A DNA stretch of 64,000 nucleotides from Arcticibacter tournemirensis (GTDB lineage Bacteria > Bacteroidota > Bacteroidia > Sphingobacteriales > Sphingobacteriaceae), in assembly GCF_006716645.1 (NCBI RefSeq), contig NZ_VFPL01000001.1, forward strand, positions 4,154,001 through 4,218,000, given 5' to 3'. This document shows, in pieces, positions 1,538-43,770 of the stretch. Numbering within the stretch: the stretch's first letter is position 1; each line of letters starts with the position of its first letter. Both the position numbers and the translations under genes were made by a program. The notes under the pieces are model-generated. The model saw nothing but the letters and a program-made list of their open reading frames with translations, was not told the origin of the DNA and did no database searches.

Positions 1538-1641
1538 AACTTATCTTTTCTGCACTCCGTGCAGACAGGAATTAGCACCTTGTATTACAACAGGTTGCTA
1601 AGACTTCACAGGGCCTATCCCTCCGTCTTTCTGGATAAGTG
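1538..1641 (-). promoter_or_regulatory. SAM-I (S-box) riboswitch
   Basis: Read on the minus strand, this stretch carries the conserved S-box landmarks in order: P1 5' strand ACTTATC, kink-turn GGAGGGA, the GGCCC...GAAG segment, AGCAACC, GGTGCTAATTCC, a P4 hairpin, and the P1 3' strand GATAAGT. The only downstream gene on this strand is the cysteine desulfurase starting at 1439. The roughly 100-nt expression platform contains an extended stem (TTGATA/TATCAA enclosing CAGAC/GTCTG). It also has AACTTAT immediately before the ATG, which is complementary to the P1 3' strand ATAAGTT. Control at translation is therefore plausible. No U-run terminator is obvious. Confidence 0.94.
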
Positions 1642-32611: not shown

Positions 32612-32615
32612 AAAC

Positions 32616-32873
32616 AATGGACAGTTGATAATGGACAGTTGATAATGGACAATTGATAATGGACAAGAGACAAGGGATAATGGATAATGAAATTCAGAAT
32701 AAAAAAGATTAAAGCAACACGTCATGAATAATAACAACGATAAATTACTACGCAATGGTTTAAAACCATTACGGCTATTTGTTGATCTGATATTCACAAA
32801 GGATATGGGCAGATTGATTACTCGGGGAACCTTTTCTTTCACTGTCCCTTGTCAATTGTCAATTGTCAAATTG
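32616..32873. repeat. Repeat element with 14-bp tandem units and inverted right arm
   Basis: Directly after the tolC stop, units of AATGGACAGTTGAT repeat at 32616, 32630 and 32644 (third copy AATGGACAATTGAT), followed by degenerate units to about 32690. At 32844-32873 an opposite-strand copy occurs, GTCCCTTGTCAATTGTCAAT and further. Between them lies a palindrome, ATGGTTTAAAACCAT (about 32755-32769). The 258-bp unit looks like a MITE-like or REP-like insertion. Similar AATTGACAATTGAC runs are, to my memory, scattered in Bacteroidota genomes. No transposase is present. Confidence 0.7.
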
Positions 32874-42916: not shown

Positions 42917-43420
42917 TTTTCTACTGAATAGATCGCATATTCTAAACGTCCTTTGCCTTCTGCTATCAGCACCGCAAGCTATCAGAGAAAACCTGGGCTG
43001 CATTAGCGAAAATAGATATTTTGCTGGATGAAATGGTTTTTATCTAAGATCAAAGCTCAAAATATAAAAGATACAGGGGGGTAGAAAAGAGCAAATAAAG
43101 ATAAGGTTTAGGAGAATAATATTGTGATAAAGTTTAAATGATTTGATTCTTAAAAGTAGAAAAAGAACATGTTATATAAAATGATCCTGATCACAAATTG
43201 AAATTATTGTTTTCCCATATATTTTCTTCAGCAGCGTAAATGGAAAAAACGTATCAGCCCGGAAAGTTGTGAACCATGCATAAATTTTCATTAAGTGGTA
43301 TATAAAAATTCTATATTTCTCCCGTCTGATCTGGCTAATCAGGTATGTTTAATTTACGGTGAATGTTAATAAAGTACTAAAAGATGAGGGTCCCCGGGGG
43401 GGCCAATATGGGTATAGTGC
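42917..43420. other. Gene-free AT-rich region upstream of the 11-bp array
   Basis: No gene is visible. Features are a hairpin CTGAT/AATCAG at about 43326-43342 and a GC-rich palindromic patch GGTCCCCGGGGGGGCC near 43390-43405. The stretch is otherwise unremarkable and may be remnant DNA. Confidence 0.4.
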
Positions 43421-43593
43421 CTAACAAAGCTCTGATAAAACCCTGACCAGTGCCGCATCATGTCAGCATCTCGTCAGTATCTCCTCAGCATCATGTCAGA
43501 CTAAAGTCTGACGAGAGTCTGACATGATCCTAACAAGATGCTGACGAGATGCTGATAACATCAGGGTTTGGTCAGGTATTGGTCAGACATTCT
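43421..43593. repeat. 11-bp-periodic palindromic CTGA/TCAG array
   Basis: CTGA/CTAA occurs at 43421, 43432 and 43443; TCAG at 43463, 43474, 43485 and 43496; CTGA/CTAA at 43508, 43519, 43530, 43541 and 43552; TCAG at 43561, 43572 and 43583. Within each block the spacing is exactly 11 bp, and all blocks mirror each other about one axis near 43503.5. Typical units are TCAGCATCTCG, TCAGTATCTCC and TCAGCATCATG. The centre forms a perfect hairpin, GTCAGACT/AGTCTGAC. No gene is present and no known family is recognised. Confidence 0.85.
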
Positions 43594-43770
43594 ATAGGTT
43601 TTTTACAAACCTTCACCTCTCTTTTATCGGTACAAACATGCCGGTTGCTGAAAAGCACCGAATTCATTTACAAAGTAGCTTATCGAATAGAAACAAACCA
43701 AAACCAAGAAACTGTATTGCTGGATCTTACTTGTCGGCATAATAGCATTAATCAGTTTAAATAAGCAAAA

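Follow-up and report, generated by a model that had tools for sequence, protein, structure and literature searches.

Introduction

The locus considered here raises a simple question: what is a mirror-symmetric array of CTGA/TCAG units repeated at an exact step of 11 bp, and is it the DNA or a transcript of it that matters? The array is located in a window (i.e., the whole stretch of DNA that was analysed) of 64,000 nt from Arcticibacter tournemirensis (GCF_006716645.1, NZ_VFPL01000001.1, positions 4,154,001-4,218,000, forward strand). Two readings had been offered by the original prediction: (i) a long RNA hairpin; and (ii) an array of proteins on one face of the DNA. The evidence presented below favours the DNA side and makes the RNA hairpin less likely; it also adds a dispersed family of 13 copies, which lay beyond the view of that prediction. 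With a probability of about 0.48, the array is best explained as an interspersed palindromic repeat acting at the DNA level, which offers one box per helical turn to a putative DNA-binding protein and whose arms match each other likely as a result of fold-back copying.

Organization of the array

The following features can be differentiated (positions are those of the window):

43362-43420 (+): left extension, common in part to four other copies of the family (in full to those at C2:283926 and C1:1600101)
43421-43593 (no strand): core array of 11-mers in four blocks, inverted around a centre (from the sequence, the period of 11, the inverted repeat and the 13 copies)
43421-43453 (+): outer left block, three CTGA-oriented units at 43421, 43432 and 43443 (C of the box in 36/36 units, A in 35/36; 12 copies)
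43455-43499 (-): inner left block, four TCAG units (43463-43499) together with the degenerate unit at 43452 (from the sequence and the period)
43499-43508 (no strand): centre GACTAAAGTC, unchanged in 12/13 copies
43508-43555 (+): inner right block, five CTGA/CTAA units (from the sequence, the inverted repeat and the period)
43561-43587 (-): outer right block, three TCAG units (from the sequence; C and A of the box in 36/36 units)
43594-43668 (+): right extension, common to the copies at C2:283926 and C1:479493 and partly to two further copies
43666-43747 (+): remnant of a PF06475 (glycolipid-binding) gene, 82 bp at 91% identity

The only copy with a different centre (L019) has it inverted and moved by one unit. 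The copy at C2:283926 has the complete PF06475 gene next to it, on its downstream side; the remnant in the window lacks 409 bp.

All the unit positions named by the original prediction proved correct in the sequence, both on the left (CTAA/CTGA at 43421, 43432 and 43443; TCAG at 43463, 43474, 43485 and 43496) and on the right (CTGA/CTAA at 43508, 43519, 43530, 43541 and 43552; TCAG at 43561, 43572 and 43583). The claimed 11-bp period was also returned by Tandem Repeats Finder on both sides, and the degenerate left copy postulated at 43452 is placed with the inner left TCAG block. As for the axis, the boxes are indeed symmetric about 43503.5, but the best-paired register lies one unit away, with its centre at 43509 (arms 43420-43502 and 43516-43598, 73% complementary). 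Across the copies, 62.8 of 88 positions pair in the best register versus 56.5 in the 43503.5 register. Since the period is 11 bases, the axis may slip in steps of 5.5 bases.

At the threshold applied, no other long inverted repeat was found in the 64-kb window. No convincing gene runs over it there, and the element is non-coding. It has no match in Rfam 15, so that the earlier statement that no RNA family explains the array holds for this database. Elsewhere in the window, an ordinary SAM riboswitch (RF00162) is found at 1538-1641 (-).

A dispersed family gained in this lineage

When the 173 bases of the array were compared by blastn with their own genome, 13 loci were found with 78-100% identity in the forward sense (26 matches for 13 loci, the element matching its own reverse too). 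The own genome was covered by (i) a pattern search; (ii) blastn; and (iii) 400 kb of tiles including six known copies. There are 53 genomic matches to the pattern TCAG-N7-TCAG-N7-TCAG, nearly all inside the 13 copies, versus 7 for a reversed control, and 45 versus 0 to the full inverted pattern; as the controls are so much rarer, the array exceeds chance. Between the most distant copies, homology does not go beyond the array itself (~185 bp, from about -80 to +105 relative to the centre); five copies share extra flank, roughly 15-55 bases on the left and 25-75 on the right. Some of the features of MITEs are present, namely a non-coding sequence of 50-1000 bp, several dispersed copies and terminal inverted repeats, the whole element being an inverted repeat. 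The array in the window is a single member of a non-coding, palindromic family of DNA repeats dispersed between genes. Six of the 13 copies cluster at C1:365101-753577, which corresponds to ~390 kb of the 5.66-Mb genome.

Among five congeners, only G002 has blastn relatives of the array. The congener gaps are ~220-570 bp shorter at htrA/dapF, metK, polA and gltX, and those inspected there are devoid of an 11-bp array; at metK, and at polA in some congeners, the inspected stretch is coding and the evidence consists of the gap lengths. The difference is much smaller at the prfA gap (about 70 bp versus G002), and the rplM comparison has one flank aligned. At comparable sites, this comparison of sequences indicates that the present lineage acquired the family, its congeners being mostly without it there. 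Both the homology of the 13 copies over the array itself and the shorter, array-free congener gaps support a repeat that exists as DNA.

Occurrence in other genomes

Related arrays had been proposed as a check, and they were found in rumen Bacteroidales, Chitinophaga and G002. In a scan of one genome per species, the listed matches to the inverted pattern came mainly from rumen Bacteroidales metagenome-assembled genomes (MAGs), with further ones in Chitinophaga and Sphingobacteriaceae and single ones elsewhere, some of which are due to chance. Counting overlapping matches repeatedly, pattern counts were 104 in RGIG5009, 140 in RUG061, 210 in RGIG6226 and 135 in RGIG3262 (0 to 8 in the controls), and 17 and 8 in two Chitinophaga genomes. 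The TCAG type is sporadic, since only one of 295 sampled Bacteroidia, the own genome, carries the pattern. One array-bearing contig assigned to RGIG5037 (L088; G347 C3) has the same array spacing, 5,869 and 10,240 bp, as a contig of RGIG5009 (G336 C13); it is probably a misbinned RGIG5009 contig, the RGIG5037 MAG being otherwise free of arrays.

A plasmid or phage origin was considered and rejected: blastn matches are absent from both PLSDB and INPHARED, and the six pattern matches in IMG/VR include none closely like the family. Three IMG/VR contigs (L165, L167 and L169) carry TCAG-type 11-mer arrays, and L165 and L169 seem to share flanks.

The same step with unrelated units

The 11-bp step is not tied to TCAG. 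When long inverted repeats were sought in 1.15 Mb of RUG061, with no TCAG required, the period was 11 in 35 of about 54, and three more that scored a period of 22 consist of TTCAACGATAC units stepping by 11; the other periods (8, 9, 14, 15, 21 and 24) were found one to three times each. The inverted 11-bp TTCAACGATAC arrays of RUG061 (G337) are at C13:135470, C13:250226 and C19:7271, and the same unit is found inside some of its TCAG arrays. Outer zones employ further 11-mers, such as TACGGAGTCCC and ATCAAGTAGGG. Congener G004, in which blastn found no relative of the window array, has an inverted 11-bp GTGCACCATNA family at six loci (among them L389, L393, L395, L397 and L399), and Chitinophaga pinensis carries TTATAGGTNNG units of 11 bp at about ten loci, of which two or more are clearly inverted (G341; the loci include C1:579704, 775515, 999779-999912 and 1929521). 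The own genome also has one direct GTGCACCATNA array (G000 C1:4683898-4683926).

These unit-independent scans were made on portions of four genomes, with the own-genome tiles chosen around known copies; in the stretches scanned, the step of the families is 11, with no case of 10. Tandem copying alone keeps a period exact, and so it is the same value across unrelated families that needs explanation. This suggests that helix spacing, and not sequence, is the property kept across these elements.

Shared positions and concerted change

In rumen Bacteroidales, arrays were masked and mapped by their flanks to 1.15 Mb of RUG061 chosen regardless of arrays. Of 44 arrays from other species, 14 coincided with a RUG061 array, versus ~3% expected under uniform placement, an expectation that rises if intergenic preference is allowed for. 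Sharing drops with divergence (6/9, 5/15, 3/19 and 0/1). A general conservation of arrays at orthologous sites was rejected, being inflated by loci fetched for their arrays; 14/44 is the result of the retest on this RUG061 sequence.

At the shared positions, RUG061 copies have RUG061 units and outer zone, usually with a GCNGC-type loop, RGIG5009 copies have ATCAAGTAGGG-type outer units, and RGIG3262 copies have TTCAGTCGTTG. Units and outer zone that are species-specific at shared positions amount to concerted change, by means of conversion, replacement or selection for a common reader; the shared positions may come from re-insertion at hot spots. Together with the 11-bp step of unrelated units, concerted change at shared positions supports the DNA-repeat reading.

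Gene context

Array-bearing gaps in RUG061 (n = 33) are divergent in 18 cases, co-directional in 10 and convergent in 5, versus 39, 77 and 30, respectively, for the other gaps of at least 250 bp (Fisher p = 0.0024). In the own genome, 5 of 13 copies lie in divergent gaps, adjoining rplM, htrA/dapF, metK, gltX and prfA. Gene calls are simple ORF picks, with gene names read from the translations. Given this placement, most copies cannot serve as terminators, and a hairpin within an mRNA becomes less likely.

No recurring recognised transposase or DNA-binding gene was found beside the own-genome copies. DUF6266 was considered as a partner and rejected, given that it adjoins several copies but not consistently: its genes or fragments lie beside 11-bp arrays of both unit types (L022, L025, L026 and L037 in G002, L170 in G000 and L393 in G004). 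Two DUF6266 matches of equal score and length, one at the beginning of C1 (G000 C1:1375-1959) and one close to the end of C2 (C2:456175-456759), raise the point that contigs C1 and C2 may overlap, in which case C2 would be chromosomal.

Proposed mechanism and alternative explanations

The constant of these elements is one box per 11 bp, and two helices fit it: A-form RNA has 11 bp per turn, and the negatively supercoiled (underwound) DNA of bacteria has an effective repeat in vivo of ~11 bp per turn. According to the DNA-level reading, (i) the boxes would all be on the same side of the DNA helix, with one in each turn; (ii) a putative DNA-binding protein would read them as a cooperative array; (iii) the inverted layout would permit fold-back, which may aid copying, spread and homogenisation; and (iv) homogenisation would proceed by unit turnover in steps of 11 and by the copying of arms off each other. 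The effect on the host, if any, would be exerted at the DNA level in promoter-bearing gaps and not as a transcript.

The first alternative, considered unlikely, is a transcribed array that forms a long dsRNA with one box per A-form turn, which RNase III or a dsRNA-binding protein would cut or bind. The RNA fold of 43421-43593 is indeed very stable (-85.4 kcal/mol versus -42.6 +/- 3.7 for shuffles; z -11.5), and so is that of the opposite strand (z -10.1); the DNA fold also stands out (z -8.2). Folding had been proposed as a check, and both strands turned out to be far more stable than shuffled sequence; hence, two of the three outcomes named beforehand as speaking against the array (an absence of related arrays and a fold no better than shuffled) were contradicted. 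In the window's own family, in contrast, there is no arm covariation, as the arms of a copy match at 62.8/88 positions versus 64.4 for arms swapped between copies, a result that supports the DNA reading. Nor is there a bias of G-U over A-C in this family (62 versus 58 mismatches). In the outer units, the box is retained where pairing has decayed (C in 36/36 units on both sides; A in 35/36 on the left and 36/36 on the right, in 12 copies), while several non-box phases vary freely. The missing G-U bias, the boxes kept without pairing and the placement in divergent gaps, where many copies are likely outside mRNAs, favour DNA over RNA; an Rfam match is absent too.

Other families bring support to the hairpin and weaken the DNA-repeat reading. 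In RGIG3262, arms co-vary (338/343 matched versus 325 expected; 0/20,000 shuffles), with the matching right-arm change present for 7 of 8 deviant left units; covariation is weaker in RGIG5009 (27/20,000 shuffles), and the arms are concordant at 6/6 loci in G004. As co-varying copies may partly share descent, independent events are fewer than those counted. This arm coupling may come from hairpin selection or from the copying of one arm off the other. Likewise, a step of exactly 11, and never 10, fits A-form RNA too, which also weakens the DNA-repeat reading.

A non-autonomous, MITE-like transposon, in which the 11-mers would be transposase-binding sites within a near-complete palindrome and an insertion sequence at another genomic site would mobilise it in trans, is judged a rather unlikely explanation. 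The array itself is dispersed and congener sites are shorter, and a non-coding, inverted element of 185 bp with lineage-specific families is what such a transposon would look like. Nevertheless, no terminal repeat in common with a known element was recognised, no target duplication is readable (the intergenic DNA of congeners is too diverged to align), and a third of the tested positions are common to rumen species. The own genome (G000) is also without a Y1 transposase (PF01797), as are RGIG5009 (G336) and Chitinophaga (G341 and G342). A link to RAYT/REP, suggested by a Y1-like gene near one Saprospiraceae array, was rejected on the basis of this PF01797 census.

Improbable, too, is neutral fold-back growth, in which slippage and template switching extend and homogenise an accidental palindrome, 11 being set by the copying machinery with no reader involved. 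Unit numbers do differ by whole units between arms and between copies, and arms co-vary as though mutually copied. But box bases are fixed while other phases drift, and both the dispersal to at least 13 loci and the excess of divergent gaps would be left unexplained. Finally, a bidirectional transcription terminator is very improbable in spite of the strong hairpin and of some convergent copies (e.g., the xylulokinase/mutL gap in two Chitinophaga species), since gaps are divergent in 18/33 cases in RUG061 and 5/13 in the own genome and convergent in only 5/33 in RUG061, T-tracts are not consistent and a terminator scanner finds none on the array.

Beyond the DNA-level reading of the window array, a broader claim, possible but doubtful, is that of a Bacteroidota element class whose conserved property would be the helical phase (inverted boxes, one for every 11-bp turn), with box sequence turning over genome-wide in concert at retained positions. 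Such elements, often between divergent promoters, would be the trace left by a DNA-binding factor that acts in trans and evolves fast.

Relation to known elements

Interspersed palindromic repeats are a known kind of element, and the nearest systems each differ from the present one in a defining feature. The parC iterons of plasmid R1 are 11-bp tandem boxes, one per DNA turn, to which ParR binds cooperatively; they are thus an analogue in the way they work, but they are direct repeats beside parMR on plasmids, whereas the arrays described here are inverted and dispersed. The Foldback (FB) transposons of Drosophila are mobile, and short tandem repeats also build up their long inverted arms, but they are eukaryotic, kilobase-sized and have other repeat lengths.

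REP/BIME sequences resemble the present family in being dispersed intergenic palindromes, many per genome, with lineage-specific sequences (PMC3733652). They are, however, 20-40 bp long, carry GTAG or CGTC tags and are associated with RAYT (TnpA-REP) transposases (PMC3733652), while the arrays here are ~185 bp of tandem 11-mers outside the REP size and tag definition, and Y1 transposases are missing from several of the genomes that carry them. The BrickBuilt MITE of Porphyromonas gingivalis is likewise a dispersed Bacteroidota element with an internal tandem repeat (19 copies, 23-nt direct repeats, separate terminal repeats; PMC4596501), but it has neither the inversion nor the 11-bp step. The TAACTGA heptamers of Beggiatoaceae, Cyanobacteria and some Bacteroidetes are short intergenic tandem units that also contain CTGA, but they are direct repeats of 7 bp, in most cases immediately preceding start codons, with a single inverted case reported (PMC4679880). 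Direct 7/14-bp repeats reminiscent of heptamers (AATGGACAGTTGAT, AGTTGAA) are found elsewhere in the window (32614-32689 and 32849-32869) and at G000 C1:366898 and C1:609827.

No published element with a fixed 11-bp step and exchangeable units was found in the open-access literature searched; this is weak evidence, subscription journals being mostly outside it. To our knowledge, no interspersed palindrome has been described whose defining features are a constant internal step of 11 bp and units that can be exchanged.

Biological significance

If the step does correspond to one box per turn, these elements would mark the sites of a DNA-organising or mobilising protein in Bacteroidota, the dominant phylum of gut and rumen communities. 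The concerted change seen at inherited positions offers a direct means of searching for a protein that may co-evolve with them.
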